A stretch of DNA of 64,000 nt from Paraburkholderia aromaticivorans (GTDB taxonomy: Bacteria > Pseudomonadota > Gammaproteobacteria > Burkholderiales > Burkholderiaceae), in assembly GCF_002278075.1 (NCBI RefSeq), contig NZ_CP022990.1:1674001-1738000 (forward strand), given 5' to 3'. Numbering within the stretch: the first letter of the stretch is position 1; each line of letters starts with the position of its first letter. Below, piece after piece: positions 1-15,774 of this stretch. A program made the translations under genes and the position numbers. A model generated the notes under the pieces. It saw only the letters and a program-made list of their open reading frames with translations. It made no database searches and was not told the DNA's origin.

Positions 1-241
1 CATCGAGGTACTGATTCATATCCGTCGCGCGATGCAAGCCGCGCACCCGGCGGAATTGATCGGCGCGTTCCTGGATTTCATCCGCGCTCACGGTCAAGCC
101 CTGCTTCTTCGCCGCATGCACCGTGAGCTTGTCGCGCACGATCTGCTCGATCAGGCTCTCGAACTGGCCGGTCAATTTCAGAAGACGAATGAACTCGGCC
201 ACGTCCACGACTTCGTCGTCGATTCGTACTATCGCGGTCAT
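1..241 (-). CDS. SurA/PpiC-type peptidyl-prolyl isomerase-like chaperone, N-terminal part (truncated by window edge)
   Basis: Only the first 80 codons are visible; the gene runs off the left edge. The ATG at 241 is preceded by AAAGGAG at a good distance. The visible part is helical and resembles the SurA_N chaperone segment that precedes parvulin domains: a helix containing FESLIEQIVRDKL, then AAKKQGLTVSADEI, the usual SurA-like pattern in which a buried helix is followed by 'x-x-x-G-(I/L)-x-V-(S/T)-x-x-E/D-(I/V)'. I see no signal peptide in the visible N-terminus, so cytoplasmic action before or during export is possible. It starts 37 bp after the HlyD gene and looks like the third gene of an FHA-HlyD-PPIase operon. 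The catalytic domain cannot be seen, so whether it is an isomerase or only a chaperone is open. Confidence 0.7.
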   Translation of the reverse strand, partial: MTAIVRIDDEVVDVAEFIRLLKLTGQFESLIEQIVRDKLTVHAAKKQGLTVSADEIQERADQFRRVRGLHRATDMNQYLD

Positions 242-278
242 CTCGTTCGCTCCTTTAATTGATGTGGGATCCGCGTGG

Positions 279-1652
279 TCAACCCGCCACCTGCCTGAAC
301 GGATCGAGACCCAGATCGATCAGGCGGCGCTCACGCACCACGATCTCGGCGCTTGCCGTCATGCCGTAGCGCAACGGGTAGCGCGTGTCGGCAATCTGGT
401 AGTAATCCTTGTCGAGCGTGACGCGGCCTTCGTAGACCGGCTGCTTGTCCGTCGCCGACGGCTTGGTGGCCGGCGAGATATAGGCCAGCGTGCCGCTGAT
501 CAGCCCATAGCGCTGATACGGAAAGGCGTTGAATTTGAGCTTGACGGGCAGACCCTCGTGCAGAAAAGCACGGTCGTGTTCGGCAATTTCGATTTTAAGC
601 ACGGGCCGCGCGTCTTTGGGCGCAATGCCCCCGAGCGGCGCGTTGGCCTGAATCTTGTCGCCGCGCTGGGTCGATGTCACGTCGGTGATGACGCCCGAGA
701 CCGGCGCGAGAATCAGCAGGAAATTGTCCTTGTCGATGTTCTCGAAGCGAATCCGCGCGGCCGCTTCGGAGACCAGCCGCGCGCTTTGCAGTTGCAGGCG
801 CAACTTGTCTTCCGCGTCGGTAATGTCGCGCACTGCCGAATCGTATTGAAGCTGCAGGTCGGTGGTTTGCTGACCGCTGGTTTCCAGTTGCGCATTGGCC
901 TGCGCATATTCGTGGCTGAGGCGGAAATCCAGCTCCGCGAGCTTCGATTGCGCGACCCGGTATGCGTTATCCGCTTCCATCGCCGCGGTGCGCTTCTGCT
1001 CCACCTGCAATTCGGCAATGCCGCCGCCGCCCGGTTGCGCGAATAGCCGCGAATAGCGATCCAGTTCCTGACGCGCCGCTTCGCGCGTGCGCCGGGCGTT
1101 GTCGAGCACGCTGCGAGCTTCGTCGAGTTCGGCCTTCTGCCCTTCCGCGAGTTTGGTCGTGCCTTCGGAGACGCGATTTTCGTGCTGGCGTGCTTCCACT
1201 TCCATCTGCGCCTTGAGCGCGGCGGCTTTACGCTCCATGAGCGCCTTCTTCTCGGGAAACTGCTTCCAGTCGCGCTCGGCGTCTTCCAGTTTGAGTTGCG
1301 CTTGCAGCGCGTTGCTGGCGGCCTCGATCGCACCGCGCGCATTCAGCCGCGCCAGCACGTCGCCTTTCGACACGGGTTGGCCCTCGGCGATATAGAGGTC
1401 CGCGAGCTCGCCGTCGATCGGCGCGTAGATCCGGCGCACCTCCGATTCCGGCGACAATGTGCCTTGCGCGCTGACGATCACGTCCGCCCGTCCCACGAAC
1501 GACCACAGCAGACCGACCACGACGAGCGCGACCATCGCCCAGATCAGCGCGCGCGCGAGCCGCACCGGTTCCGCCGTCAGAATCGCAATGCCTTCGACAC
1601 TGTGATCCTCCAGCGCCTCCGACAACGGTCTAGGGTGATTGTCGCGTTTCAC
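279..1652 (-). CDS. HlyD-family membrane fusion protein (type I secretion periplasmic adaptor)
   Basis: This 457-aa protein has the HlyD layout: a short cytoplasmic N-terminus, one membrane segment (about 34-54), a first half-lipoyl motif (IYAPIDGELADLYIAEGQPV, about 75-94), a long Glu/Ala/Gln-rich coiled-coil hairpin (about 105-300), a second half-lipoyl segment (APVSGVITDV, about 315), and a C-terminal beta-barrel region. Such proteins link an inner-membrane ABC exporter to an outer-membrane channel. The GTG start at 1652 has GGAGG upstream and lies inside the end of the FHA gene (23-bp overlap), indicating translational coupling. Together with the FHA protein, PPIase-like chaperone, NodT-like channel and nearby double-glycine peptides it suggests a peptide exporter. 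The ABC partner is not in the window, so substrate assignment is inference. Confidence 0.92.
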   Translation of the reverse strand: MKRDNHPRPLSEALEDHSVEGIAILTAEPVRLARALIWAMVALVVVGLLWSFVGRADVIVSAQGTLSPESEVRRIYAPIDGELADLYIAEGQPVSKGDVLARLNARGAIEAASNALQAQLKLEDAERDWKQFPEKKALMERKAAALKAQMEVEARQHENRVSEGTTKLAEGQKAELDEARSVLDNARRTREAARQELDRYSRLFAQPGGGGIAELQVEQKRTAAMEADNAYRVAQSKLAELDFRLSHEYAQANAQLETSGQQTTDLQLQYDSAVRDITDAEDKLRLQLQSARLVSEAAARIRFENIDKDNFLLILAPVSGVITDVTSTQRGDKIQANAPLGGIAPKDARPVLKIEIAEHDRAFLHEGLPVKLKFNAFPYQRYGLISGTLAYISPATKPSATDKQPVYEGRVTLDKDYYQIADTRYPLRYGMTASAEIVVRERRLIDLGLDPFRQVAG

Positions 1653-4203
1653 TCTGCTCGCCTCCGATGAGTGCCAGCTTCGCTTTCAGAAGTCCCGGAT
1701 CCAGCACCATGCGCAACTCGGTCAGCGAACGGCGCTGCAAGTTGGCTTCGGCTTCGATATCGGCGAGCAGACGGTCGAAGTCGGCGGGGTGATCGGCCTT
1801 CAGTTGCGTGTAGATGCGCATGCCCTGTTGCGCCGACGTTTGCGCCTCGGACAGCAGACGCGCCGCGCTGCGAAACCCCGGCGAGATTCCCGCTTCGAGA
1901 CGTTGCGTTCCGCCGATCGATCCGCTCGCGCGATACTGTTTCCATAGGGTCTGGGCGCGCAACAGCAGGTCTTGGGCACGCGCCAGCGCTTTGTCGTGCA
2001 AGGCGGCGACGTCTTTCTGAATCGATTGCAGGAACCAACCGTCCGTTGCCGGGACGAGGCTCGCGTAGAACGACAGCAGGCGTTGGTCGTAGTCTTTATC
2101 GCCGCGCGTCTTCTGCAATTGCGCGTACTGATCGAGCAAGGCCTTCTTGTGCGCCAGTTCCGCCGCGAGCACATCGGACCACGGCCCGGCGGGCATGGCC
2201 TGCAAACCGGCCAGCGCCTGTTGTGCATCGCCGCGCTGCCATGCCTCCGCCACCGCGTCATGGCGCGCAATGACGTCGGGTGACGGCAAACGGCTGGCCG
2301 CCAGTTGTTGAAACTGCGCCTGAAACGGCGGCGTGCTGAAATGGGCCGTTTTCAGCATCGCGAGCAATGGCGCTAGTTGCCGGCCCAGCGCGGCGTTCAG
2401 CAAGTCGGTATATTGGCGTAGATCCTGGCGCACCCGGTCGATGCCCGCGAGACGCGGATAGCGCTGCGCGTAATCGTCGAGTACCGGAGGCAGCGCATCG
2501 GGCTTGTCGCGCGCCAGCTCGGTGCGAATCGTCCCATTCAGACGGTCGATGGCGGCGAGATACACCGAGTCGTCGCTTTCCAGCTTGCGCAGATGGCTCA
2601 GCGCCAGGGCATAGGGGTCGGCGAACACGGGGACGTAGGACGCGATCCGGTCGAGCGCGCGCTGGTGGCTCTTGGCGTCGTCTTCCCAGCGTCGCAGCAA
2701 ATTGCCGATCGTGCCCTCGTCCGTGTACATTCGAATCGGCGCCTCCACGCCGCCGCGTCCCGCCACGAAGCGCTCCAGATCGCCCACCCACTGTAATTCG
2801 CCGATCAATGACGCGGCATCCGCGTTGTTTGCACTCAACGATTTCATTTCGGTGAGCAACGCGTCGGCCTGATCGAACTGCGCCTTTTCCAGCGCATTCA
2901 GCCAGTTGGGGACTTTCGCCTTCAACAGCGCTTCGCTCGCGAGCGCGCTGACTTTCGTGTCCGTGGGATGGCTCGCCAGGTAGCCCTTTGCCGTGGTAAC
3001 CGCGCTGCTGTAATCGCCGTTGGCGAGCAGGTTCTTCAACTCGCGCTCCGACGAACCGCGCATATAAAGTGTCGACGCGATTGCCACCAGCGCCGCCACG
3101 CCCACGCCGCCCCAGATCGCGATACGCCGCACGCTCGTGCGATCGCCGATTGCAAAGGCGTTACCGAGTTCGCCAGCGAGCAAGCGCCAACGTTGCGGTT
3201 TGCGCTTGCCCGCGCCGGCATGGGCGGCGCCATGCGCACCGTTCGTTCCGTTCGCGCCTTTCTCCATGCCCGTCGGCGTGTCGCGTTTCGCATGCGCGGA
3301 CGTGGGCTGCGCGGCCTCGTTGACTTCGTCTTCCCGTTGCACACCAGGGTCGACGCAAAAGATATCGAGGAAGGAATGCGCGGCGCCGACGAACGTGGTT
3401 TTGTCCTGATCGGCGGCTTCGGCGGCGGCCGGATTGAGGCATAGCTGGGTCACGGTGGGCTCGACTTCAGGGGGGTTCTGCAGCGTCACCCTGTAGACGA
3501 AGTGATCTCCGCCAAATGCAACGAGGTCTCCCTCTACGAGCGGCAGCGCGGATTCGTCCAGCCGCTTTCCGCCGACGAATGTCCCGTTGGTGCTGCCGAG
3601 ATCTTCGACATACAGTTCGCCGCCCTTCAGAAAGATGTGAGCGTGACGCCGCGAAATGTAGTTGACCTGGTGCGGGTAGCGGTCCTTGTAGCGCGAAAAC
3701 ACCTCGTCCGTTTTGCTGACGAGAAACGGAAAGGCCTGCACCTCGATGGGTTGCAGGCCGAGGTCGTCGCGCTGCGGCACCAGCAGCAATCCCGGCGCGG
3801 CGGACGAACTGGCGGCCGCCACGATACGCGCGCGAGGCTCGATGCCCACCCGGTAGCACAGCTCGCCACCGAAGCACAGTTCGTCGCCGGCACGCAGACG
3901 CGCCGGTGTTTGCCGCACCGCGACGCCGTTCACCGTCGTGCCGTTCTTGCTGCCGAGGTCGGCCACGTAGACCGCGCCATGTTCCGTGAAAATCCGCGCA
4001 TGGCGGCGGGACAGGCGCGCAATCCGTTGCGCCGGATAGTCGGTAAACGGCGCCTCGCTGCGCCCGATTGCAAAGAGGTTGTCGACGATCCGGATCGCAT
4101 CCAGCGCGGGACGTTGCGCGGACGCAGCCGGCGACAACACCACGTCGAACGCGGCGTCTTCAGTCGCGCGCATCTCAGCAATCGGAGCTTCGCCGGCGGC
4201 CAT
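1630..4203 (-). CDS. Double-FHA-domain membrane protein with large C-terminal helical domain
   Basis: This 857-aa protein carries two FHA phosphothreonine-binding domains. FHA1 (about 35-120) has the full signature GRS, SRRH, LGSKNGT, VNG. FHA2 (about 150-242) has SRRH, LGSTNGT, but VSK where GR is expected. A Gly/Ala/His-rich linker follows, then one membrane segment (about 361-381) and a 470-residue helical, TPR-like region predicted outside the cytoplasm. A DKTTFVG segment near 268-273 is a plausible phospho-acceptor, which is speculation. The gene heads the FHA-HlyD-PPIase operon behind a sigma-70-like promoter at 4321-4348. A Ser/Thr kinase is encoded 6 kb away (10086-12281), so phospho-dependent control of the export machine is a reasonable model. 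It is not similar in layout to the type VI secretion Fha proteins, which lack the large extracytoplasmic half. Confidence 0.85.
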   Translation of the reverse strand: MAAGEAPIAEMRATEDAAFDVVLSPAASAQRPALDAIRIVDNLFAIGRSEAPFTDYPAQRIARLSRRHARIFTEHGAVYVADLGSKNGTTVNGVAVRQTPARLRAGDELCFGGELCYRVGIEPRARIVAAASSSAAPGLLLVPQRDDLGLQPIEVQAFPFLVSKTDEVFSRYKDRYPHQVNYISRRHAHIFLKGGELYVEDLGSTNGTFVGGKRLDESALPLVEGDLVAFGGDHFVYRVTLQNPPEVEPTVTQLCLNPAAAEAADQDKTTFVGAAHSFLDIFCVDPGVQREDEVNEAAQPTSAHAKRDTPTGMEKGANGTNGAHGAAHAGAGKRKPQRWRLLAGELGNAFAIGDRTSVRRIAIWGGVGVAALVAIASTLYMRGSSERELKNLLANGDYSSAVTTAKGYLASHPTDTKVSALASEALLKAKVPNWLNALEKAQFDQADALLTEMKSLSANNADAASLIGELQWVGDLERFVAGRGGVEAPIRMYTDEGTIGNLLRRWEDDAKSHQRALDRIASYVPVFADPYALALSHLRKLESDDSVYLAAIDRLNGTIRTELARDKPDALPPVLDDYAQRYPRLAGIDRVRQDLRQYTDLLNAALGRQLAPLLAMLKTAHFSTPPFQAQFQQLAASRLPSPDVIARHDAVAEAWQRGDAQQALAGLQAMPAGPWSDVLAAELAHKKALLDQYAQLQKTRGDKDYDQRLLSFYASLVPATDGWFLQSIQKDVAALHDKALARAQDLLLRAQTLWKQYRASGSIGGTQRLEAGISPGFRSAARLLSEAQTSAQQGMRIYTQLKADHPADFDRLLADIEAEANLQRRSLTELRMVLDPGLLKAKLALIGGEQSETRQSP

Positions 4204-4432: not shown

Positions 4433-5887
4433 TCAGTGTTCCTTTACTTCTGTCTGTACGTCGACGCTCGGCCAGCCCCCGCCCAGCGCTTTATAAAGCA
4501 GCACCGTGTCGGACAGAATCTGCTGATGGTTGGCGAGCAATGCCTGCTGCGCCTCCAGCAAGGTTCGCTCGGTTTCGAAAACCTCCAGTTGCGACACCAC
4601 GCCGAGGCGCAGTTGCGACTGGATCTGATCCGCCACGATTTGCAGCCGCGCCACTTCCTGCTGCAGTTCCACCCGCTGTTCCTTGTGCGAATTCACATTG
4701 ACCAACGCGTTTTCCACTTCTTCGAACGCGGCCATCACCGCCACGCGATACTGCTGCTCGGCAACCGTCGATTGCGCCTGCGTGACTTTCACGTGCGCCC
4801 GCACGCCGGGATCGAGCAGCGGAATGTTGATGCTGGGCATGAAGCCGTACGTGAACGATTTCAGCAGATCGGTCAGCGCAAAACTGGCGGTGCCGCCGTG
4901 CGCGGTCAGGCTGATGGTCGGCAGTTGCGCGAGTTTTGCCTGGCCGACGAGGTCGTACGCTTCCAGCACTCTGAACTCCGCGGCCACCACGTCGGGACGC
5001 CGCGCGAGCAGTTGTGCGGGCAGGCCGTCAGGCACGGCGGGCAGTTGCACGCGCTGCTGCAAATGTCCCTTGGGCATCTGAAACTCGCCCGCCGGCACGC
5101 CAAGCAACGTGCAGAGCGCGTTGTTGGCAAGCGCGCGCGAACGGCGCAGATCGAGCAACTGATTGGTCAGGCGGTTGATCTCGGCCTGCTGGCGCAACAC
5201 CTGGGTTTGCGGCACGAGGCCGTTGCGGCGCTGGCCGTCGTAAATCGCGAGAATCTGCCGGTTCGTTTCGAGGGTTTTCTGTTGCTGTTCGATCTGATCG
5301 TCGAATTGCAGAATCTGGAAGTACGTGCTGGACACGTTCGACACCAGTTCCAGATAGCCGGCTCGCCAGTCCGCTTCGCTGGCGTGGAATTCCGCCTTTT
5401 GCGCCTGCACGCCTTTTTCGACTTTGCCCCAGATATCGATGTCCCAGTTCACCTGCGCCGCCAGGTTGTATTGCTTGGAGAACGTTTGGTGGGTGGTCTT
5501 TTCGAAATCGGCGCCGGCGCCGAGGTCCATGGTCGGCAGGGCGCCTGCCTTGGCTTCGCCGATCTGCGTGCCGGCCACGTCGATGCGCGCGGCCAGCACC
5601 TTGATATCGAAGTTGCCGGCAATCGCCTTCGCGATCAGCGTGTCGAGATAGGGATCATGGAAGCCTTTCCACCAGTCGGGTTCGATCGTCGCCGCAGCCG
5701 AGACGGGCGAGCCCTTCTGATCCGACCACGACGCCTTGGCGGGCGTGTCGGGACGCTTGTAATCGGGCATGCTCGTATCGACGCAGGCCGTCAGCGATAG
5801 CGCGCAAACCGTTGCCGCGCAAACGCAACGCAGCGCCAGTGTCCTGCGATAAAAGCGCTGACGAGCTGATGAAAGCAACGCTGACAC
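4433..5887 (-). CDS. NodT-family outer-membrane lipoprotein channel (TolC-like factor)
   Basis: The protein resembles RND/type I efflux outer-membrane factors of the NodT family: a lipobox LTAC near residue 35, the mature start VDTSMPDYKRP, and repeated helical hairpins with DIDIWGKVE, RRNGLVPQTQVLRQQAEI, LARRPDVVAAE and LLDPGVRAHVKVTQAQ. Length (484 aa) is normal for the family. I chose GTG at 5887 because GGAGA lies 7 bp upstream; an ATG at 5914 is in frame but has no ribosome-binding site. There is no RND pump or separate adaptor next to it. Instead it follows a double-glycine peptide gene on the same strand (225-bp gap, no obvious strong terminator), so it may share the sigma-54 transcript and serve as outer-membrane exit for the HlyD-type exporter. 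Confidence 0.88.
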   Translation of the reverse strand: MSALLSSARQRFYRRTLALRCVCAATVCALSLTACVDTSMPDYKRPDTPAKASWSDQKGSPVSAAATIEPDWWKGFHDPYLDTLIAKAIAGNFDIKVLAARIDVAGTQIGEAKAGALPTMDLGAGADFEKTTHQTFSKQYNLAAQVNWDIDIWGKVEKGVQAQKAEFHASEADWRAGYLELVSNVSSTYFQILQFDDQIEQQQKTLETNRQILAIYDGQRRNGLVPQTQVLRQQAEINRLTNQLLDLRRSRALANNALCTLLGVPAGEFQMPKGHLQQRVQLPAVPDGLPAQLLARRPDVVAAEFRVLEAYDLVGQAKLAQLPTISLTAHGGTASFALTDLLKSFTYGFMPSINIPLLDPGVRAHVKVTQAQSTVAEQQYRVAVMAAFEEVENALVNVNSHKEQRVELQQEVARLQIVADQIQSQLRLGVVSQLEVFETERTLLEAQQALLANHQQILSDTVLLYKALGGGWPSVDVQTEVKEH

Positions 5888-6112
5888 AATGGTCTCCGAT
5901 GACGCCCACTTCATTGCACGAGGAGAACGCGCCCTTTAAGTAAAGCATCTCCTGCGCGGCTTCACCATCGAAGCGAGGCAAGAATGTCGGCGCGGGAATC
6001 GGGCGGTGACGCGGGGATGGCGTGGAAAGAACGATTGGTTGCGAATTCTTTTTGAGGAGCGGCCGGTAGGCGCCCGCGGAGGCCATCGGACCCCCGCGGC
6101 GGCCTGCATCGT

Positions 6113-6394
6113 TTAATGCAGGTTGATGTTGTTGCTTGCGCTCACGTGCGGATCGATCGTGGTCGAGATGCCGGAGACGAACGCTGCGTTGTTGCCGTTG
6201 GCGTTCTGGATGTCCAGCTGCGTGTTGATCAGTTGGGTGGCGTTGACCGTCTTGCTGTTGTTCGGCGCGTACATCGGCATGAAGTTGAAGTACGACGAGG
6301 ACGGATAGTAGCCGGTGCCGCCGCGCACGGCGCTCATGGCCTTGCTGTCGAGTTGTTCGGTGATGGACAGGTCTTTGATGGTCAGCGTGTTCAT
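6113..6394 (-). CDS. Double-glycine leader peptide P0
   Basis: The 93-aa precursor starts MNTLTIKDLSITEQ and has a leader ending LDSKAMSAVRGG at residue 26, followed by a 67-residue, cysteine-free mature part rich in Asn, Ser, Thr and Tyr. The ATG at 6394 has AGGAG 9 bp upstream. The leader follows the C39-peptidase pattern (hydrophobic positions, then M-x-A-V-x-G-G). The leader is identical to, and the core clearly homologous with, the two P1 copies at 12697 and 14961. It is preceded by a hairpin, sigma-54 promoter and enhancer-like dyad shared with the other peptide units. No modification enzyme of a RiPP type is nearby, so it is more likely an unmodified secreted peptide than a lanthipeptide-like product. 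Function unknown. Confidence 0.82.
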   Translation of the reverse strand: MNTLTIKDLSITEQLDSKAMSAVRGGTGYYPSSSYFNFMPMYAPNNSKTVNATQLINTQLDIQNANGNNAAFVSGISTTIDPHVSASNNINLH

Positions 6395-6469: not shown

Positions 6470-6485
6470 TGCATGGGCTGTGCCA
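6470..6485 (-). promoter_or_regulatory. Sigma-54 (-24/-12) promoter of P0
   Basis: On the minus strand the sequence reads TGGCACAGCCCATGCA, matching the sigma-54 consensus TGGCAC-N5-TTGCW at all fixed positions except the first T of TTGC. GG and GC have the required 10-bp separation. Confidence 0.85.
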
Positions 6486-6677: not shown

Positions 6678-7112
6678 TCATCGAGCAATGACGGTGATCT
6701 TCTTCGAGTACACGGGTGGATTGTGCGGGACATGCATGTCGTCGCCCATCAGCAACTGCAACGTGTGCTTGCCCGGCGGAAGTTGAATCGTCGTCTCCGT
6801 TTCGCCCGCGCCGAAATGCAGGTGGTTACGGTCCGACGGAATCTCCTGATCCATCGGCGGCAGATCCGTGTCGATCAGCAGATGGTGGTGGCCGGTATTC
6901 GGATACTTGACGCCTTTGGGCGCCACGCCCATATACCGAAGGCCGAACCACACCTTGAACGGCTTGTTGGCCGGTACGACCTGGCCGTCGTTGGGATAGC
7001 CGATATAGGCATGGGCGCCCGCCGGTGCCGGCGTCGTACCCGCAATGACGACATTCGGCGAAGCCAATACCGCCGACATGGCGAGCGCCGCGACCGCGAT
7101 GATCTTGTACAT
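6678..7112 (-). CDS. DUF4399 periplasmic protein A
   Basis: This 144-aa protein has a signal peptide (about 1-24, ending VVIAG) and a single DUF4399 domain with the His-rich signature NTGHHHLLIDTDLP, then DQEIPSDRNHLHFGAGETET and PPGKHTLQLLMGD. The domain is a small beta-sandwich of unknown function, often found in periplasmic proteins; the conserved histidines suggest metal binding (inference). The ATG at 7112 is preceded by GGAGAG. It lies 47 bp after a paralogue in the same direction, so the two form a pair. The P0 enhancer dyad lies just past its 3' end. Confidence 0.85.
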   Translation of the reverse strand: MYKIIAVAALAMSAVLASPNVVIAGTTPAPAGAHAYIGYPNDGQVVPANKPFKVWFGLRYMGVAPKGVKYPNTGHHHLLIDTDLPPMDQEIPSDRNHLHFGAGETETTIQLPPGKHTLQLLMGDDMHVPHNPPVYSKKITVIAR

Positions 7113-7159: not shown

Positions 7160-7663
7160 CTAGTCTTTTAGCACGGTGATGGTGATCTTCTTCGAATACA
7201 CGGGCGGCACGTGCGGCACGTGGTTGTGATCGCCGAGAATGAGTTGCAGTGTGTGTTTGCCCGGCGGCAACTCGATACGCGCGTCCGTTTCACCCGCACC
7301 GAAGTGCAGGTGATTGCGATCCGATGGGATTTCCTGATCGAGCGGCGGCAGATCGGTATCGATCAGCAGATGGTGATGGCCGGTGTTCGGGAACACAACG
7401 CCTTTCGGGCACACGCCCATGTTCCGCAGGCCCATGCGCACCCACAACTTGCCGCCGTGAATCACCGCGCCATCCGGCGGCCAGATGATGTACTCCTCCG
7501 CGCCCGGCGGCGAGGCCGTCGGCTCGGCGAGCGCAAATGCGCCCGGCACCATACCGCCGAACATGAGAACGAGCGTTGCACGCAACGCCTTACGCCGCGC
7601 CTCGCGATGAGGATTCGATTCGTGACGCACGTCGAGAACAACGGGGGTAACGGTTCTTCGCAT
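7160..7663 (-). CDS. DUF4399 periplasmic protein B
   Basis: A 167-aa paralogue of the preceding protein: it shares the NTGHHHLLIDTDLPPLDQEI block and the GKHTLQLILGDHNHVPH tail almost unchanged. Its N-terminus is longer and Arg-rich before a hydrophobic segment (ATLVLMFGGMVPGAFALA, about 29-46), which looks like an atypical signal peptide or anchor. The ATG at 7663 has CGGGAGAG upstream. It is the first gene of the pair and is transcribed away from the caspase-like gene. The product is likely periplasmic; its function is unknown, and its inclusion in the peptide-export cluster rests only on position. Confidence 0.82.
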   Translation of the reverse strand: MRRTVTPVVLDVRHESNPHREARRKALRATLVLMFGGMVPGAFALAEPTASPPGAEEYIIWPPDGAVIHGGKLWVRMGLRNMGVCPKGVVFPNTGHHHLLIDTDLPPLDQEIPSDRNHLHFGAGETDARIELPPGKHTLQLILGDHNHVPHVPPVYSKKITITVLKD

Positions 7664-8030
7664 AGCGCACTCTCCCGAAGAGCGGTCATGGCCACCCCGG
7701 CTGCGCGAGGCAGGCCGGGCGTCCGGCTGGATATCGCGGGCGCGCGCACGGTTTGACGGCCACCCTGTATATAACGACCGTGCCGCCTTACTTTGTGAAT
7801 TAGCTTAGGACGTAACTTGCCAAAAAGATACGCCACACTCGTTAACCGTATAACGCGTTCGGGGCAAGTGGACGGTTGTGGCGCGCAAAGCGCGTGCTAT
7901 CGTTATTAAGAGGTTGCAGATGGATGGTCGATAGCGGCGTCGATGTTTCGCGCGACTGACTCCAGCAACGGCTGCGAGTGGCGCGGTGCCCGATTGCCTA
8001 TGTTCTGTCCGGAACAAACAGGATGTGAAG
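7664..8030. other. Divergent intergenic region between DUF4399 pair and caspase-like gene
   Basis: This 367-bp spacer separates divergently transcribed genes and must hold both promoters. I see a possible -10 (TATAAC near 7849) but no convincing paired -35, and no sigma-54 promoter that meets the spacing used by the peptide genes. No gene is supported here. Confidence 0.4.
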
Positions 8031-10028
8031 ATGTGGCGAATATTCATGCTGGTGTGCATGGCCGGGGCGATGCAGGCGCATTGGGGCAATGCCTTTGCGG
8101 CGCCGCAACGTGAGGGCGCCCAGGCGAACGCGAGTGCGGCGCCCATGGCGCAATGGCCGCTCACGCCGTTCGCGCCGCCATGGGGCAAGCCGCCGTCTCC
8201 GCGAATTGCGCTGGTGATCGGCAACGGCGCTTACGGTGCTGATCGTGCTGATCGTGCTGATCGTGCTGATCGCAATGATGCGCAAGCGGACGCGCTGCGG
8301 AAGAACGCCCCACGCGATGCCGAGGCCATGCGCGACAGGCTGAAGGCACTCGGCTTCGATGTCGTCATGCGCACGAATGCGACGCCGCAGCAAATGCGGC
8401 AGGCCATCGGCGAATTTCATGAACGCTTGCGGGCAGGCGGCGTCGGTCTCTTTTATTTCGCGGGACACGGCATGCGGATCGGCGCGCAAACAATGCTCAT
8501 TCCCGCCGGACTGGATGCTCGCTTGCCGGCCGCGGTCTTCAGCAACGCCATCGAGCTGAATACCGTGTTGCAGGCAATGCGCGCGCCGCGTGACGGCAAA
8601 TTCAACCTCGTGATCCTCGATACGTGTCTGAACAATCCGTTCTCGGCAGACGTGACGGGCGATGCATCAGCGCTTCCGGACCACACGGTAGTGGCCTACG
8701 CGACCGCACCCGGCGGCTTCGCAGCAGACGGCGCGCGTCATGGCGTCTATACGAATGCATGGCTGCACGCCCTCGACAGCGCTGCGTCACAGCCCCTGGC
8801 GAACCTTTTGCAGCGCGTCGCGGCGCAGGTTCGCGACGCGACTGGCGGCGAGCAAGCGCCGTGGCTTGCTGCGTCGCTTCCTCAATCCTTCTTCATGGCC
8901 GACGCTGCGTCCGCTGCCTGGGACAATCCCGTGGTCACACTGCACAGCCGAGGCATTCTGCCCAAAGACAGCAGCGAGCAATACGAAATCACCTTCTGGG
9001 ATTCGATCAAGGACAGCAACTACCCGGCCGACTATGAGGCGTATCTGAAGGCCTATCCGAACGGCCGCTTCGCCACGCTCGCTCATGCGCGCATCGACCG
9101 TTTGCGCGCGGCGGGCGCGTCGACTGCGCCGTCCGTGCCCACGCCCGCTGCGTCCTCGGTAACACCGGCTCATCAAACACCGGCTCCGCAAACCGCGCGG
9201 CCAACGCCGCCGCCCACCGCGCCAGCGCCCAAGCCCACCGCCAGCGCCGCCCCGCCGGCCACGCCCCCCGCCGCCGCGGTCGCGCAAAAGCCCGTCACGC
9301 ACGCGCCGGTTGCCGGCGAAAGCCGCGATTGCGCCACCTGTCCGATCATGATCGCCGTGCCCGCTGGTTCGTTCTCGATGGGCAGCAGCACCGACGATCC
9401 TTCCGAAAAGCCGGTTCATCACGTGAGCATCGGCGCGCCGTTCGCGATCGGCAAGTACGAGGTGACGGTCGAACAATGGAACGCCTGCGTTGCCGCCAAT
9501 GCGTGTCAGAAGCTCACGCCCGAAAGCAATACCAACAAAGCGGCTCCCGCGCGCGACCTCAGTTGGGACGACGCGCAGCAATACGTGAAATGGTTGAGCA
9601 AGAGCACCGGCAAACCGTACCGCTTGCCCACCGAAGCGGAGTGGGAATACGCCGATCGCGGCGGCACCACGACCGCCTACTGGTGGGGCGAGCAGATGCG
9701 CAAGGGCAACGCCAATTGCAAGGACTGCGGCGACCCGTGGCACAAGGAAGGACCCGAGACCGCAGGCTCGTTCGCACCGAATCCGCTCGGCCTGTACGAC
9801 ATGAACGGCAGTGTCTGGGAATGGACCGCCGACTGCTGGCACAACTCCTACCAGGGCGCGCCGGCCGATGGCCACGCATGGGAGACCCCCGGCTGCGACA
9901 TGCGCGTGATTCGCGGCGGTTCGTGGCGTGAAGGCGGCGGCTATATGCTCAGCGCGACACGCTTCAAATACAGCTCGGGTGTGCGCCAGTCGCAGGACGG
10001 CTTCCGGGTCGTCAAAGATCTCAAGTGA
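8031..10028 (+). CDS. Caspase-like (C14) protease fused to a SUMF1/FGE-sulfatase domain
   Basis: This 665-aa protein has a signal peptide (about 1-23), a caspase-like p20 domain and a C-terminal SUMF1 domain joined by a Pro/Ala-rich linker. The caspase part shows [12 protein letters not shown] (about 58), FYFAGHG with catalytic His146, and LDTCLNNPF with catalytic Cys199. The SUMF1 part (about 435-665) shows [36 protein letters not shown] and VIRGGSW. Such fusions are often secreted or periplasmic proteins of unknown role; the SUMF1-like fold here need not generate formylglycine. I start at ATG 8031 because it opens on a signal peptide; a GTG at 7986 is in frame but adds 15 non-signal residues. 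A 9-bp tandem repeat enlarges the loop after the first strand. It is convergent with the kinase gene (58-bp gap). Confidence 0.88.
8236..8271 (+). repeat. In-frame 9-bp tandem repeat (GTGCTGATC x4)
   Basis: Four perfect copies of GTGCTGATC encode ADR repeats at residues about 70-81 of the caspase-like protein, followed by one degenerate unit. Copy-number change would keep the frame. Confidence 0.9.
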
Positions 10029-10085: not shown

Positions 10086-12281
10086 TCAGGGCGAGCGCGG
10101 CTTCGTCGTAATCGGCGCGAAATCGGCGACGATGTGGTCGCGCCCATATTTGCCGCCGATCTGCGCGAGCCGCGCGTCGAGTGCGTGCAGGTAATCGGCG
10201 CGCGATTCGCTTTCGGGACGCGGCTTGTCAAATAGCGGTGCTGGCGTAATCAGCAGCACCACCATCTCCGATCCGAACGGCTTTGAAATGATCCAGTCGC
10301 CGGCGCCGCCGATCGTCGCGGCATAGTGCGGCGGCGCCTGATTGTCCTTTGCGCGCGGGCTCGGCACCATGTGCACGACGCTGCCGTCGAGCTGGTAGTA
10401 GTCGAGGTTCACATACGAGTCGTAGCCCGGCGTGGTGACGTCGACGACCAACGGGTCGCCGTCGCTCAACTGACCGCCTGGCGGCCGCACGTGCAAGGCG
10501 GCAACATGGCCGGCTTGCATATTGGCCACCCAGTAGGACGCGAGCGCTTTGACGGTGTCGCACTTATCGTCGGCGAGCGGGTCGACGGCAAGCGTCAGCG
10601 TATCGACGCCCGGCAGGGCCGCCAGCGTGTCCTTCAAATGCGGCGTGCCGTAGCGTTGCGAAACATAGCCCCGCACCGTCAGCGAGTGGTCCTGTACAGA
10701 GGCCGACAGTGCTGAACAGGGCACTTGCGTCAGCGCGGATGTGACGGCGGCGAGAGTCAGCGCCGGCTTCGGCGCGGGCGGCGACACCGACGGCGTGACG
10801 GGCACGGCCGCGACCGGACTTGCCGGCGGTGGCGTGGCGGGCGCCGCAGCGACCGGACTTGCCGGCGGTGACGGCGCGGGCGCGACAACCGGGCCCGACA
10901 CGGTTTCCCCCGAAGCCGACGAAGCCGCCTGCTCCGCCAGGGCCTGCGACGCGCCCGCCTGCGTCTGTGCCCCGTTCTGCCGGTTCGGCGCCGAGCGGAA
11001 CGCGTACACGCCGACCGCGGCCGCGCACACCACCGCGAAACTCGCGAGTCCCACCTTCGCCAACGTGCCCGACTTCTCCGCGCGCGCTTCGTTATCAAAC
11101 TCCGCGATGAAGCGCTCCACGCTCGGCATGCGCGTATTGCGATCGAACGATAGCGCCGAGCGCAACGCGCGCCACTGTCTCGCGTCGAGATTGGGCGGCC
11201 GCTGCGGCTTGAAATCGGCATTGCGGGCTTGCGTCGCCGACAAGCGGTCGAACGGATGGTGGCCGGTCAGCAACTCATACGTGATGCAGCCGAGTGCGTA
11301 GATATCGTCGCGTGGATCCGGCTCGCGGTGCTCGATCATTTCCGGGCTGGCATATGCGGGCGTCAATGCGCCGAGGCTGCCGGGATCGAAAACGGTTGCG
11401 TCGCTCTCCTCTTCCGGACGCTGGAACACACGGGCGATGCCGAAGTCGATGACTTTCACTTCGGCATTCGTCGTGAGAAACACGTTGGCGGGTTTGAAGT
11501 CGCAATGCACGAAGCCGCGCTCGTGCGCGTAGGCGAGCGCGCTGCTCATGCCGCGCACGATCGGCAGCGCCGCGCGCACCGGCATGCCCTGGTAGCCCGG
11601 CGTGCGCAGCAACTGGCTGAGCGGTTTGCCGGACAGGTACTCCATCGTCAGGTAGACGATCGGCCCGTCGCGGTCGAAGTCGTACACCGTGATGATGTTG
11701 CGATGCGCGAGCACCTGCGCCTTGCGCGCCTCGCGCTGCAACGCGACGAGCGAATTCGGGTTGCCGCGGAACTGGACGTTGAGCACCTTGATCGCGAGAT
11801 ACGGCTTGCGATCCGAAGCCTCGAGCTTGCGCAGGTCGAGCGCCTTGTACACCGTGCCCATGCCGCCGACGCCCAGGCATTCCTCGAGCACGAAACGGTT
11901 ATTCAGCGTGTCGCCCGTGCCCTTGATCTGATCGTGTCCGGCCGCGCCGCCGGTGCTCGTCGCGTTGGACGCACTGCTCGAATGGTTCCCGCTGCCCGCG
12001 CTGGCCGAGCGCACCGACGGAAGCTCGACCGTGGTCTGGATGCCGGTCTCGTCGCCGCCGGCCGCCACGTTCGAAACGCGCAACTGTTCGATGCGCCGCC
12101 GCACTTCCACATAGAGATCGTCGGGGAGCGGCGCTTTGCGATGTGCCGCGCCGAGCATATCCAGCAGCTGCGTGGGACCGAGTCCTTCGGTCGTCAACGT
12201 GCTGTCGAGTTGGGCCACGAACTCGTCACGGGACAGCTCGCCGTTCTGAAAGTCGTGAATCACACGCGCAAGGCTAGCCAT
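10086..12281 (-). CDS. Membrane Ser/Thr protein kinase with C-terminal DUF4384-like domain
   Basis: This 731-aa protein has an N-terminal helical segment (1-75), a Ser/Thr/Gly-rich linker and a Hanks-type kinase domain (about 130-395). Visible elements are the glycine loop GVGGMGTVYKA, VAIK-type Lys165, Glu184, catalytic loop HCDFKPANV (Asp261; a non-RD kinase because Arg is replaced by Cys), DFG at 279-281 and SPE near 312. A membrane segment (about 409-427) and a Pro/Ala-rich spacer precede a C-terminal domain (about 510-731) with BON-like and DUF4384-like stretches, probably periplasmic. The core catalytic residues are intact. It could phosphorylate the double-FHA protein at 1630-4203; that is inference from co-location. 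The start at 12281 has only a weak ribosome-binding site. Confidence 0.9.
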   Translation of the reverse strand: MASLARVIHDFQNGELSRDEFVAQLDSTLTTEGLGPTQLLDMLGAAHRKAPLPDDLYVEVRRRIEQLRVSNVAAGGDETGIQTTVELPSVRSASAGSGNHSSSASNATSTGGAAGHDQIKGTGDTLNNRFVLEECLGVGGMGTVYKALDLRKLEASDRKPYLAIKVLNVQFRGNPNSLVALQREARKAQVLAHRNIITVYDFDRDGPIVYLTMEYLSGKPLSQLLRTPGYQGMPVRAALPIVRGMSSALAYAHERGFVHCDFKPANVFLTTNAEVKVIDFGIARVFQRPEEESDATVFDPGSLGALTPAYASPEMIEHREPDPRDDIYALGCITYELLTGHHPFDRLSATQARNADFKPQRPPNLDARQWRALRSALSFDRNTRMPSVERFIAEFDNEARAEKSGTLAKVGLASFAVVCAAAVGVYAFRSAPNRQNGAQTQAGASQALAEQAASSASGETVSGPVVAPAPSPPASPVAAAPATPPPASPVAAVPVTPSVSPPAPKPALTLAAVTSALTQVPCSALSASVQDHSLTVRGYVSQRYGTPHLKDTLAALPGVDTLTLAVDPLADDKCDTVKALASYWVANMQAGHVAALHVRPPGGQLSDGDPLVVDVTTPGYDSYVNLDYYQLDGSVVHMVPSPRAKDNQAPPHYAATIGGAGDWIISKPFGSEMVVLLITPAPLFDKPRPESESRADYLHALDARLAQIGGKYGRDHIVADFAPITTKPRSP

Positions 12282-12369: not shown

Positions 12370-12459
12370 ATGTGCCGCTTCGATACTAGCTCCAGGCCCG
12401 TGCTTTCGCAAACCAGGATTGGCCCGCTGCCTGCGAGGCGGGCGTGTGTCGTGCGCTAT

Positions 12460-12484
12460 CCAACAGCGTAACGCGGTTTGTCGG
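12460..12484. promoter_or_regulatory. Enhancer-like dyad upstream of the P1-P2 sigma-54 promoter (copy 1)
   Basis: CCAACA-N13-TGTCGG is centred 135 bp upstream of the -24 element. It differs from the P0 site at only a few positions over 25 bp and keeps the central ACGCGG. Confidence 0.65.
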
Positions 12485-12606
12485 GCGCGCGCCGTCAGCC
12501 TCGCATCCCGCAGGCACGGCAGCACGTCTTCGCCCATCCGGCACGGCGGCGCGAAAGCCTTATTCGGCAAGCCTTCTCCCACTTTCTTAGGAACCTTGAA
12601 TAAAAC

Positions 12607-12622
12607 TGGCACAGCCCGTGCA
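12607..12622 (+). promoter_or_regulatory. Sigma-54 promoter of P1-P2 (copy 1)
   Basis: TGGCACAGCCCGTGCA carries GG and GC with 10-bp separation and matches the sigma-54 consensus except for G in place of the first T of the -12 element. Confidence 0.85.
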
Positions 12623-12633
12623 TTAGTGACACT

Positions 12634-12652
12634 CGAGCAGACAAGTTGCTCG
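12634..12652 (+). promoter_or_regulatory. 5'-end hairpin of the P1-P2 transcript (copy 1)
   Basis: CGAGCA-N7-TGCTCG starts 13 bp after the -12 GC, where sigma-54 transcription is expected to begin. It is identical to the element in front of P0. Confidence 0.6.
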
Positions 12653-12696
12653 CAATCCACCCCAAGCCAGTGACCCTTACCTCCAGGAGTTTCACC

Positions 12697-12975
12697 ATGA
12701 ACACGCTGACCATCAAAGACCTGTCCATCACCGAACAACTCGACAGCAAGGCCATGAGCGCCGTGCGCGGCGGCACCGGCTACTATCCGTCCACCTCGTA
12801 CTTCAACTTCAGCCCCGTCTACGCCCCGAACAACAGCAAGAAAGTCGATGCCACCCAGCTGATCAACAACGAACTGAATCTCCAGAGCGCCAACGGCAAC
12901 AACGTCGCGTTCGCCTCCGGCATCCACTCGACGGTCAACCCCTACGTCACCACGAGCAACAACATCCACGTGTAA
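12697..12975 (+). CDS. Double-glycine leader peptide P1 (copy 1)
   Basis: This 92-aa precursor has a leader ending LDSKAMSAVRGG at residue 26 and a 66-residue cysteine-free core rich in Asn, Ser, Thr, Val and Tyr (TGYYPSTSYFNFSPVYAPNN at its start, ending TTSNNIHV). The ATG at 12697 has CAGGAG 8 bp upstream. An upstream in-frame start at 12646 lies inside the 5' UTR and has no ribosome-binding site. The leader is identical to that of P0, and the core is about two-thirds identical. It is the first gene of a sigma-54 transcript with P2 88 bp downstream. The encoded protein is identical to the second copy at 14961 although the DNA differs at three synonymous positions. Likely a secreted peptide of unknown activity. 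Confidence 0.85.
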   Translation: MNTLTIKDLSITEQLDSKAMSAVRGGTGYYPSTSYFNFSPVYAPNNSKKVDATQLINNELNLQSANGNNVAFASGIHSTVNPYVTTSNNIHV

Positions 12976-13063
12976 TTCGTGACGCGGCAAGGCGCCCGGC
13001 TTCCCGGCGCGCTTTGCCGCCCGCCGATTACCCGCGTCCCGCGCGCACCTTTGGAGAAGCACC

Positions 13064-13348
13064 ATGTCATCCCTCATGATTCGCGATCTGTCCGGCACCC
13101 GCGAGCTCGACCGCCGCGCCATGTCGGCGGTGGCCGGCGGCACCGGCAGCAGCGTACCCGGCCTGCCCTCGGTCGCCGGCCTTGGCGGCATTGCCAACGT
13201 CAACGTCTCGGTGAACCAGAACCTCAACCAGTTGCAGTACGTCAATGTGGCGGCGCTGAACAACGTCGGCGTGATCGGCGCGGGCTTCGTGCCGCTGCAC
13301 CTGAACGTCAGCCCGTCGCTGTGGGGCGCCAACTACGCCAACGTCTGA
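13064..13348 (+). CDS. Double-glycine leader peptide P2 (copy 1)
   Basis: This 94-aa precursor has a leader ending LDRRAMSAVAGG at residue 26, matching the P1 leader at the key positions. The 68-residue core has no Cys and contains a strikingly alternating stretch (NVNVSVNQNLNQLQYVNV, about 45-62) that should form beta strands, then Gly/Ala/Val and aromatic residues. TTTGGAG lies 10 bp before the ATG. It follows P1 in the same transcript and is itself followed by a strong hairpin (13355-13387). The second copy at 15328 encodes the same protein. The Asn/Gln/Val composition resembles self-assembling or surface-coating peptides more than pore-forming bacteriocins, but this is only inference from composition. 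Confidence 0.85.
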   Translation: MSSLMIRDLSGTRELDRRAMSAVAGGTGSSVPGLPSVAGLGGIANVNVSVNQNLNQLQYVNVAALNNVGVIGAGFVPLHLNVSPSLWGANYANV

Positions 13349-13354
13349 GCGCTC

Positions 13355-13387
13355 GCGGTAGCGAGGCCCGGGGGGCCTCGCTACCGC
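13355..13387 (+). terminator. Strong hairpin after P2 (copy 1), possible terminator or processing barrier
   Basis: GCGGTAGCGAGGCC and GGCCTCGCTACCGC form a perfect 14-bp stem with a 5-nt loop, starting 6 bp after the P2 stop. No U-run follows, so it may be an mRNA 3'-end stabiliser or partial terminator. Confidence 0.6.
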
Positions 13388-13531
13388 CGGCAGGCCATCG
13401 CCGGCCGGCGAGCCACGAGCAGATTTCCTATACTGATAGTGCGAGGAGACCTCAGCACATTTCACGATATACCCGAGCGACAGCCGGTGCTTTCCACCGG
13501 CCAGCCGCTCGACTTCTTTCCTGGAGCCACC

Positions 13532-13741
13532 ATGGCGAATCTCATCATCAGGGACCTCTCCGACAGCATCGAACTCGACCGCCAGGCAATGGCGGCCATT
13601 GTCGGCGGCGCCAGGATTGGCGCACGGCTGAATGTGGCCGTGCCGCTGGTGCCGGTTTCGGCACGTGTTGTCGAATATCCGCCCGGATTTCCCGCAGCGC
13701 ACCAGACCATTGCCCGGGCGGCCATGCAGCGCAAACCGTAG
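13532..13741 (+). CDS. Double-glycine leader peptide P3
   Basis: The 69-aa precursor starts MANLIIRDLSDS and has a 26-residue leader ending LDRQAMAAIVGG, clearly homologous to the P2 leader. The core is only 43 residues, basic (several Arg, one Lys) and Val/Pro-rich, unlike the neutral cores of P1 and P2. CCTGGAG lies upstream of the ATG at 13532. It sits behind the post-P2 hairpin; a TATACT at about 13431 could be the -10 of a separate promoter, but no clear -35 is visible. The gene is missing after the second P1-P2 copy, where homology stops just before its start region. Confidence 0.78.
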   Translation: MANLIIRDLSDSIELDRQAMAAIVGGARIGARLNVAVPLVPVSARVVEYPPGFPAAHQTIARAAMQRKP

Positions 13742-13986: not shown

Positions 13987-14002
13987 TGGCATAGCCCTTG
14001 CA
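13987..14002 (+). promoter_or_regulatory. Sigma-54 promoter of P4
   Basis: TGGCATAGCCCTTGCA has a perfect -12 element (TTGCA), GG/GC at 10-bp separation and one deviation (T for C) in the -24 box. It shares the AGCCC spacer with the other three promoters. Confidence 0.87.
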
Positions 14003-14031: not shown

Positions 14032-14057
14032 GCCCATCCAACTTCAGGAGTAACGCC

Positions 14058-14264
14058 ATGAAATCCACACTCATCCTCAAGGACCTGCCGCGCTCCGCGG
14101 AACATGCACATGACGACATGACGCTCACCGCCGAGCAGATGAAGGCGCTGCGCGGCGGCCGTTCCGTCGTCGTCACCGTGGACCGCGGCGGGTTAGGCCA
14201 TGTCGACGACTTTGAGATCAACACCGCCATCTTCGAAGGACGCATTGGCGGGACCTACCTGTAG
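14058..14264 (+). CDS. Double-glycine leader peptide P4 (divergent)
   Basis: The 68-aa precursor begins MKSTLILKDLPRS and has a longer, 34-residue leader ending LTAEQMKALRGG; the 34-residue core is RSVVVTVDRGG followed by an acidic segment and GGTYL. It shares the L-I-K-D-L motif and the M-x-A-(L/V)-R-G-G cleavage region with P0 and P1 but otherwise differs. TTCAGGAG lies 10 bp upstream of the ATG. It has its own complete sigma-54 unit, so it is co-regulated with P0-P2. No Cys, so no disulfide or thioether chemistry. A GG pair inside the core and another near its end are not in leader context. Confidence 0.78.
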   Translation: MKSTLILKDLPRSAEHAHDDMTLTAEQMKALRGGRSVVVTVDRGGLGHVDDFEINTAIFEGRIGGTYL

Positions 14265-14326: not shown

Positions 14327-14353
14327 TGTTCATTTGATCTGGTGAATGTCCGG

Positions 14354-14709: not shown

Positions 14710-14723
14710 GTGTCGTGCGCTAT

Positions 14724-14748
14724 CCAACAGCGTAACGCGGTTTGTCGG
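14724..14748. promoter_or_regulatory. Enhancer-like dyad (copy 2)
   Basis: Identical to 12460-12484 and at the same distance from its promoter. Confidence 0.65.
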
Positions 14749-14870
14749 GCGCGCGCCGTCAGCCTCGCATCCCGCAGGCACGGCAGCACGTCTTCGCCCA
14801 TCCGGCACGGCGGCGCGAAAGCCTTATTCGGCAAGCCTTCTCCCACTTTCTTAGGAACCTTGAATAAAAC

Positions 14871-14886
14871 TGGCACAGCCCGTGCA
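14871..14886 (+). promoter_or_regulatory. Sigma-54 promoter of P1-P2 (copy 2)
   Basis: Identical to 12607-12622, so the second copy is a complete transcription unit rather than a promoterless duplicate. Confidence 0.85.
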
Positions 14887-14897
14887 TTAGTGACACT

Positions 14898-14916
14898 CGA
14901 GCAGACAAGTTGCTCG
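14898..14916 (+). promoter_or_regulatory. 5'-end hairpin of the P1-P2 transcript (copy 2)
   Basis: Identical to 12634-12652. Confidence 0.6.
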
Positions 14917-14960
14917 CAATCCACCCCAAGCCAGTGACCCTTACCTCCAGGAGTTTCACC

Positions 14961-15239
14961 ATGAACACGCTGACCATCAAAGACCTGTCCATCACCGAAC
15001 AGCTCGACAGCAAGGCCATGAGCGCCGTGCGCGGCGGCACCGGCTACTATCCGTCCACCTCGTACTTCAACTTCAGCCCCGTCTACGCCCCGAACAACAG
15101 CAAGAAGGTCGATGCCACCCAGTTGATCAACAACGAACTGAATCTCCAGAGCGCCAACGGCAACAACGTCGCGTTCGCCTCCGGCATCCACTCGACGGTC
15201 AACCCCTACGTCACCACGAGCAACAACATCCACGTGTAA
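14961..15239 (+). CDS. Double-glycine leader peptide P1 (copy 2)
   Basis: The 92-aa product is identical to the copy at 12697, although the DNA differs at three third-codon positions. Same ribosome-binding site and 5' UTR. Retention of the exact protein sequence suggests either very recent duplication with gene conversion or purifying selection on both copies. Confidence 0.85.
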   Translation: MNTLTIKDLSITEQLDSKAMSAVRGGTGYYPSTSYFNFSPVYAPNNSKKVDATQLINNELNLQSANGNNVAFASGIHSTVNPYVTTSNNIHV

Positions 15240-15327
15240 TTCGTGACGCGGCAAGGCGCCCGGCTTCCCGGCGCGCTTTGCCGCCCGCCGATTACCCGCG
15301 TCCCGCGCGCACCTTTGGAGAAGCACC

Positions 15328-15612
15328 ATGTCATCCCTCATGATTCGCGATCTGTCCGGCACCCGCGAGCTCGACCGCCGCGCCATGTCGGCGGTGGCCG
15401 GCGGCACCGGCAGCAGCGTACCCGGCCTGCCCTCGGTCGCCGGCCTTGGCGGCATTGCCAACGTCAACGTCTCGGTGAACCAGAACCTCAACCAGTTGCA
15501 GTACGTCAATGTGGCGGCGCTGAACAACGTCGGCGTGATCGGCGCGGGCTTCGTGCCGCTGCACCTGAACGTCAGCCCGTCGCTGTGGGGCGCCAACTAC
15601 GCCAACGTCTGA
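15328..15612 (+). CDS. Double-glycine leader peptide P2 (copy 2)
   Basis: The 94-aa product and the DNA match the copy at 13064. It is again followed by the 14-bp hairpin, but no P3 follows it, so this transcript encodes only P1 and P2. Confidence 0.85.
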   Translation: MSSLMIRDLSGTRELDRRAMSAVAGGTGSSVPGLPSVAGLGGIANVNVSVNQNLNQLQYVNVAALNNVGVIGAGFVPLHLNVSPSLWGANYANV

Positions 15613-15618
15613 GCGCTC

Positions 15619-15651
15619 GCGGTAGCGAGGCCCGGGGGGCCTCGCTACCGC
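15619..15651 (+). terminator. Strong hairpin after P2 (copy 2)
   Basis: Second copy of the perfect 14-bp stem at 13355-13387. Confidence 0.6.
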
Positions 15652-15774
15652 CGGCAGGCCATCGCCGGCCGGCGAGCCACGAGCAGATTTCCTATACTGA
15701 TAGTGCGAAGAGACCTCAGCACATTTCACGATATACCCGAGCGGCAGCCGGTGCTTTCCACCGGCCAGCCGCTC

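Follow-up and report, generated by a model that had tools for sequence, protein, structure and literature searches.

Several described systems come close to parts of the locus reported here, a putative peptide-export module of Paraburkholderia aromaticivorans. In class II microcin export of the CvaA/CvaB/TolC type, double-glycine (GG) precursors are served by an ATP-binding cassette (ABC) exporter with a C39 peptidase domain, a HlyD-type adaptor and an outer-membrane channel (PMC10233263). Among cyanobacterial bacteriocin clusters, groups I, II and VI are described as joining a long-type C39-ABC protein, with an N-terminal extension of about 300 residues, to a SurA-like peptidyl-prolyl isomerase (PPIase)/rotamase, HlyD and tandem GG precursors (PMC3140520). 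In the PpkA/PppA/Fha1/TagQRST pathway of the type VI secretion system (T6SS), a membrane Ser/Thr kinase, an opposing phosphatase and a forkhead-associated (FHA) protein control a secretion machine posttranslationally (PMC10482370, PMC4348357), while in mycobacteria the Ser/Thr kinase PknF and two FHA domains control the ABC exporter Rv1747 (PMC3908365). Secretion of the fibre subunits of Fap functional amyloid requires a C39-family peptidase, FapD (PMC5557850).

The P. aromaticivorans module occupies the left part of the window, by which we mean the whole 64-kb stretch of DNA that was analysed (G000:C2:1674001-1738000, in a genome of 8.9 Mb), and continues into the 15 kb fetched to its left (L006; Table 1). 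With a probability of about two in three, we regard it as a type I secretion system dedicated to families of unmodified GG peptides and equipped with its own transcriptional and phospho-signalling control. An earlier note, made from the sequence of the window alone, had named no described system that joins sigma-54 control, FHA/kinase signalling and GG peptides. This stands for the combination of a kinase/phosphatase/FHA module, sigma-54 control and a C39 GG-peptide exporter, of which no earlier description was found in the literature searched, and does not stand for the parts, since the exporter is itself of an already known kind and Rv1747/PknF offers a precedent (PMC3908365). By this comparison the novelty would lie in the combination, and the exporter core, the kinase/PP2C/FHA triad and the kinase/FHA control of an ABC exporter each appear to have known parallels.

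Exporter and export machinery

The earlier note had pointed to the left of position 1 as the place to look for a C39 ABC exporter, and the gene was found there, 0.6 kb outside the window and on the strand shared with the machinery genes within it. The C39 domain begins at residue 306, after the two cNMP domains, and the PPIase and HlyD genes adjoin. When a species-genome collection was scanned for the exporter, 315 relatives were confirmed; the loci counted out of 80 below are the best 80 of these 315, with related genes searched by tblastn in 10-kb flanks around the exporter. The C39 residues Cys317, His390 and Asp406 and the ABC Walker residues were invariant in all 80 exporter orthologues, and the counterpart in Paraburkholderia xenovorans LB400 was 99% identical.

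It was noted that the genes for the FHA protein, HlyD, the PPIase, the exporter and the sigma-54 activator form a single run with intergenic gaps of at most 62 bp. The HlyD adaptor, NodT-type channel, double-FHA protein, Ser/Thr kinase and caspase/SUMF1 fusion named in the earlier note were all borne out by Pfam and NCBIfam models, as was its PPIase-like chaperone by Pfam, the PPIase gene crossing the left window edge with the C-terminal part outside; two DUF4399 genes had been missing from its list. Against more specific models, the PPIase scored 98 bits (TIGR04500, cut-off 180) and the HlyD protein 170 bits (TIGR01843, cut-off 208.65), both under the cut-off. With an intact C39 ABC exporter, GG precursors, a HlyD adaptor and a NodT channel, the locus has the gene content and sequence features of a C39 type I export system, one built on a peptidase-containing ABC transporter (PCAT).

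Unlike the class II microcin systems, the locus carries its own NodT channel, a PPIase, a sigma-54 activator, kinase, phosphatase and FHA proteins and a caspase-FGE fusion (FGE, formylglycine-generating enzyme). One of its core families is N-rich and conserved, and we saw no convincing immunity gene. The exporter core is closer to the cyanobacterial long-type clusters than to class II microcin systems, with 43% identity to the ABC protein of Nostoc HK-01 plasmid5 over residues 304-1017. In contrast to the cyanobacterial clusters, the tested precursors matched no NHLP or Nif11-type model: NCBIfam includes NHLP/N11P leader models, and neither three window precursors (E ≤ 0.1) nor the L006 precursor (E ≤ 0.001) gave a match. 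In a 14.9-kb Nostoc stretch, tblastn found no relative of the kinase, PP2C, FHA, activator or NodT proteins.

Precursor peptides and sigma-54-like sites

All seven GG precursors that the earlier note had counted within 16 kb were recovered by a leader regular expression, which began 12 bases late, at an internal Met, in those at 13064 and 15328 and at the full start in the other five. Their leaders all end in M-x-A-(V/I/L)-x-GG, and in an alignment of 34 precursors the GG and a Leu at -12 were invariant, Met stood at -7 in at least 90% and V or I mostly at -4. This agrees with the spacing of the double-glycine leader consensus, which has hydrophobic residues at -4, -7 and -12 (PMC3140520). The same expression gave 155 matches in 75 of the 80 related loci and none in reversed sequences; the flanks of L071, L088, L107, L109 and L116 held no match. 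By simple motifs, under which two C-like members were counted in family B, the 155 precursors were labelled A (59), B (63), C (1) and D (10), leaving 22 others. Database relatives of the peptides (120 listed of 1532) were, where named, hypothetical or uncharacterized. In three genomes a precursor match carried one in-frame TAG (G021:C274:25899-26183, G042:C2:2498244-2498528, G020:C3:827330-827614).

Because 14710-15784 repeats 12446-13520, four of the seven window precursors are two recent pairs, and a less exact copy of one of these, at 85%, lies at 6119-6487. The precursor at 14058-14264 had no counterpart among 101 loci compared. Window cores are 34-68 residues long, and N and Q together make up 21-22% of those in families B and C and 3-7% in the other two. 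Across the 155 precursors, Asn accounted for 14% and Cys for 0.1% of core residues; the lack of Cys that the earlier note had seen holds in the window, and nine of the 155 related cores do contain Cys. Family A cores had a mean identity of 66% (1711 pairs, 59 loci) compared to 69% for their leaders, with the FHA protein at 62%, the activator at 71% and the exporter at 86%, whereas the cores of the NodT-linked family B precursors were 36% identical compared to 76% for the last 22 leader residues (65 loci). This pattern suggests that at least one core family, A, is under the kind of constraint expected of structural or housekeeping products, and that B is variable.

The GAFTGA residues tested in the sigma-54 activator were kept in 80/80 loci. 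Sigma-54-like sites were defined as TGGCACGN4TTGCW with at most two mismatches, and all four sites found in positions 1-16000 of the window lie directly upstream of precursors. Among related loci, 93 of 154 precursors (the promoter count took in 154 of the 155) had a site starting 56-113 bp upstream, compared to 63 of 3080 positions taken at random. Among the starts of other genes in these loci the figure was 4 of 677 (one each for FHA, NodT, caspase-FGE and kinase). This placement, together with the activator beside the exporter, supports the sigma-54 control proposed in the earlier note as far as the precursors are concerned; for the machinery genes such control is not supported. Elsewhere in the genome, two distant precursor-like open reading frames (ORFs), G000:C2:2485425-2485559 (L124; 7.8e-9) and G000:C2:363448-363549 (L125; 2.2e-4), have one-mismatch sites 98 and 81 bp upstream, so the system may also export peptides encoded elsewhere.

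Occurrence of the module in related genomes

The exporter relatives belonged to Paraburkholderia, Caballeronia, Cupriavidus, Trinickia, Aromatoleum, Noviherbaspirillum, Herbaspirillum, Burkholderia sp./Burkholderiaceae and one Oxalobacteraceae metagenome-assembled genome. Most of the 80 loci also contained the other genes of the module (Table 1), and some misses fell at contig ends (L109, L111, L081, L090, L093, L101). Other misses were absences within the 10-kb flank: for example, no PP2C was found in L042, L091 or L107, and no DUF4399 or caspase-FGE gene in the Aromatoleum loci L098, L108 and L114. Several genes missing from the flank were encountered beside a distant kinase instead, namely FHA and NodT (L105, L107), PP2C (L091, L107) and DUF4399 with caspase-FGE (L114), in L142, L147, L150 and L152, the last of these holding the Aromatoleum L114 case.

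We assessed co-occurrence in 98 genomes, 58 from the same genus (this one included) and 40 from other families. The exporter N-terminus, the precursors (by alignment or hidden Markov model) and the FHA C-terminal region were each found in 43 and the kinase C-terminal region in 44, and an identical set of 43 genomes carried all four; none of the four occurred in the 15 other genomes of the genus. The gene set recurs and co-occurs in other Burkholderiaceae, the check that the earlier note had suggested. The 44th kinase match (G073; 2e-13, 25% identity) was not counted as an orthologue. Exporter and kinase lay 9-20 kb apart on one contig in 40 of the 43 and on separate contigs in G023, G043 and G054. 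In a same-genus genome of 5.2 Mb, the region G008:C6:94270-106980 has an exporter match from which the part with the C39 Cys is missing, together with broken FHA and kinase matches, which looks as though the whole module were decaying as a unit.

The kinase fell inside the exporter flank in only 6 of the 80 loci and mostly lay farther out. For 35 chosen loci, mostly outside Paraburkholderia, a kinase orthologue was present over most of its length in 35/35 further genomes or records; the match was often split in two, and in G479 its halves fell on two contigs. Neighbourhoods were fetched for 21 of the 35, and 18 of these had GG precursors within 3 kb of the kinase, the misses being L139, L141 and a contig end, L149. 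In Caballeronia sp. M1242 the kinase and three precursors lie about 137 kb from the exporter on the same replicon. A sample of the order contained the exporter in 3 of 399 genomes (E ≤ 1e-60), and relatives of the FHA C-terminal part were found in 157 of 398 Burkholderiaceae genomes and 8 of 25 genera.

Kinase, phosphatase and accessory proteins

As in the T6SS pathway, kinase, phosphatase and FHA protein are encoded at one locus, and this recurs in related loci. The PP2C phosphatase, outside the window, strengthens the phospho-signalling link drawn in the earlier note, and its metal-site Asp residues are conserved in 75/75 orthologues or, where one sequence has a gap, in 74. The kinase has a hydrophobic stretch at residues 410-428, and its catalytic residues were present in four of the six copies then available, the remaining two being gapped there. 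In the double-FHA protein, which has its hydrophobic stretch at residues 358-376, the AlphaFold model of FHA1 resembles OdhI/GarA; the binding-site Arg, Ser and Asn are kept in 77/77 orthologues and the His in 76 of them.

Unlike the T6SS pathway, the machine here is a C39 type I exporter, and the FHA protein is a double-FHA membrane protein where Fha1 is cytoplasmic; the T6SS gene vipB occurs on C1 and C3 only, with none on C2, the contig of the module. The FHA domains of Rv1747 lie inside the transporter, whereas the ABC protein here has cNMP domains and the FHA domains form part of a separate protein, and the description of Rv1747/PknF consulted here mentions neither a C39 peptidase nor GG precursors nor a sigma-54 activator (PMC3908365).

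The His/Cys dyad of the caspase-like domain is intact in 63/63 orthologues. The closest solved relative of the FGE domain is PvdO, and TagR of the T6SS pathway is also FGE/SUMF1-like. TagR is described as periplasmic (PMC10482370, PMC4348357). By eye the N-terminus of the caspase-FGE protein looks like a signal peptide, while a hydropathy test found no stretch above its limit. The neighbouring DUF4399 genes (6678-7663) share 78% DNA identity across 258 bp. An LRAT-domain gene (L006:7932-8531), present in 69/80 loci, adjoins the outermost precursor. Left of the module stand a KaiC-like double ATPase and then a response regulator (L006:2447-4342); the ORF at L006:5714-6727 has, by eye only, the look of a class A beta-lactamase next to a LysR-type regulator ORF.

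Table 1. Features of the module. Single-range positions refer to the window; positions outside it are given on contig G000:C2. Locus counts are out of 80.
Feature	Position	Strand	Evidence	Loci
C39-peptidase ABC exporter, 1018 aa, two cNMP-binding domains	G000:C2:1670370-1673426	-	PF03412 6e-39	
Sigma-54 activator	G000:C2:1669015-1670373	-	4-bp overlap with exporter gene	80
PPIC-type PPIase	1..241 (whole gene G000:C2:1673489-1674241)	-	PF00639 4.1e-10	79
HlyD-type periplasmic adaptor	279..1652	-	PF13437 1.4e-19	77
Membrane protein, two N-terminal FHA domains, one likely transmembrane (TM) helix, all-helical C-terminal region	1630..4203	-	PF00498 2.5e-30 (two stretches)	77
NodT-type outer-membrane channel	4433..5914	-	TIGR01845 310.7 bits, above cut-off	76
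Stp1-like PP2C phosphatase	G000:C2:1668197-1668967	+	218 bits, under cut-off 230	75
Membrane Ser/Thr kinase, C-terminal DUF4384-like region	10086..12281	-	PF00069 2.2e-40	
Caspase-like (C14) and FGE/SUMF1-like fusion	7986..10028	+	PF00656 3.5e-29, PF03781 2.5e-56	70
DUF4399 protein, hydrophobic N-terminus	6678..7112	-	PF14347 3.8e-37	71
Second DUF4399 protein	7160..7663	-	PF14347 2.6e-37	71
GG precursor, family B (leader 26, core 67 residues)	6113..6394	-	Leader regex	
GG precursor, family B	12697..12975	+	Leader regex	
GG precursor, family C (N/Q-rich core)	13064..13348	+	Leader regex	
GG precursor, family D (basic core)	13532..13741	+	Leader regex	
GG precursor, longer leader (34 residues)	14058..14264	+	Leader regex	
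GG precursor, family B, duplicate	14961..15239	+	Leader regex	
GG precursor, family C, duplicate	15328..15612	+	Leader regex	
Eighth GG precursor, beside PP2C gene, outside window	G000:C2:1667904-1668191	+	Leader regex	
Sigma-54-like site, for precursor 6113-6394	6470..6485	-	2 mismatches	
Sigma-54-like site	12607..12622	+	2 mismatches	
Sigma-54-like site	13987..14002	+	2 mismatches	
Sigma-54-like site	14871..14886	+	2 mismatches	
1.07-kb duplication, first copy, two precursors inside	12446..13520	+	99.26% over 1076 bp to 14710-15784	
1.07-kb duplication, second copy	14710..15784	+	99.26% match to 12446-13520	

Discussion

As a dedicated secretion system, the module would work as follows. On a signal, the exporter-linked sigma-54 activator would turn on the scattered precursor genes, and the exporter's C39 domain would cut the leader after the GG during export, the core leaving through the ABC-HlyD-NodT path with the PPIase perhaps assisting. 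The balance of the membrane kinase against the PP2C phosphatase may set a phosphothreonine mark on a partner of FHA1, which the double-FHA protein would read in order to assemble or gate the exporter, and the cNMP-type domains may contribute nucleotide control. The caspase/FGE and DUF4399 proteins would likely act in the periplasm, either supplying input or checking quality. As for the products, a structural or surface role is more probable than a toxic one.

A number of observations weigh against this interpretation. The sampled genomes and loci are mutual relatives, so that counts overstate the statistics and the co-occurrence figures represent linkage, not independent events. The kinase is not invariably next to the exporter. 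In Noviherbaspirillum L105 and Herbaspirillum L107, no HlyD, FHA or NodT gene lies within 10 kb of the exporter, and HlyD was not seen in the farther stretches fetched, which stop inside the FHA gene. Window positions 1-16000 hold no more sigma-54-like sites than chance would give (four, against a chance mean of 2.1 and maximum of 7), and 61 of 154 precursors have no site at up to two mismatches; many of these are inner members of tandem arrays, a pattern such as an operon might give. FHA2 has Lys in 77/77 orthologues at a position where Arg is usual in FHA domains, and therefore may not bind phosphothreonine. The variability of family B cores is not predicted by a structural role alone, and AlphaFold gave no confident structure for a core (mean pLDDT, the predicted local distance difference test, 60).

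The observation that the core architecture matches that of microcins, with GG precursor, PCAT, membrane fusion protein and outer-membrane channel (PMC10233263), raises the question of whether the locus encodes a bacteriocin system of class II microcin type, whose GG peptides kill competitors and whose signalling module times their release. We consider this rather unlikely, though the likeliest of the alternatives: the several paralogous precursors, their recent duplication and the variable family B cores would all suit it, as would a 57-residue ORF at 5936-6109(-) directly after a same-strand precursor. However, that ORF has no TM-like stretch and was matched in 16 of 101 loci, all close relatives and none of the more distant ones. 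No convincing immunity candidate was seen near the precursors, where the small ORFs that recur across many distant loci lie opposite precursors, overlapping them on the other strand, and the family A core is conserved about as well as its leader. On the other hand, some Bacteroides double-glycine bacteriocins reportedly lack an immunity protein, and immunity genes carry no sequence signature (PMC10233263). It is more doubtful still that the GG peptides act as pheromones in a cell-cell signalling circuit with the kinase as their sensor. In many loci the kinase gene does lie about 400 bp from a precursor, and the C-terminal region of the kinase extends past its hydrophobic stretch, but the window cores are long for pheromones and each genome encodes several dissimilar core families.

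The kinase and caspase domains are similar to those of many general families, defence models among them, and together with the distance seen in Caballeronia sp. M1242 this could mean that a GG-peptide exporter and an independent kinase/FHA/caspase system (for envelope stress, defence or as a T6SS part) are unrelated neighbours. Such a coincidence is very unlikely given the all-or-none co-occurrence in the same 43 genomes, the GG precursors that accompany the kinase even away from the exporter and the placement of both vipB genes of the genome on other contigs. Least credible of all is a pathway for ribosomally synthesized and post-translationally modified peptides (RiPPs) with the FGE-like domain modifying the peptides. 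The PvdO-like domain of the caspase fusion and the few Cys-containing cores would fit, yet Cys is the FGE substrate and the cores are nearly free of it. The earlier note had seen no RiPP enzymes, which is correct among the genes searched with the exception of this domain, no further modification enzyme having been found; a caspase-FGE protein, if exported, would not meet peptides crossing directly through the C39 exporter.

The dedicated secretion system with its own control therefore remains our preferred interpretation, and a more specific form of it can be put forward tentatively, as possible and not as probable. A complete T6SS-style threonine-phosphorylation module, made up of the kinase, the PP2C phosphatase, the FHA protein as scaffold and the FGE-like protein as input, might be coupled to the C39 type I exporter, with a phosphothreonine switch timing the export of sigma-54-induced N/Q-rich peptides that build an extracellular, perhaps amyloid-like, layer. 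The resemblance to Fap is limited in that FapD is described as periplasmic with a Sec signal and no ABC part, the Fap proteins as without canonical C39 sites, and the channel as FapF (PMC5557850).

The module is widespread in Burkholderiaceae, including soil- and plant-associated relatives. If our interpretation is true, gating by Hanks-type kinases and FHA proteins would be a control layer that type I secretion uses too, and an exported peptide family of plant- and soil-associated bacteria would become directly testable.

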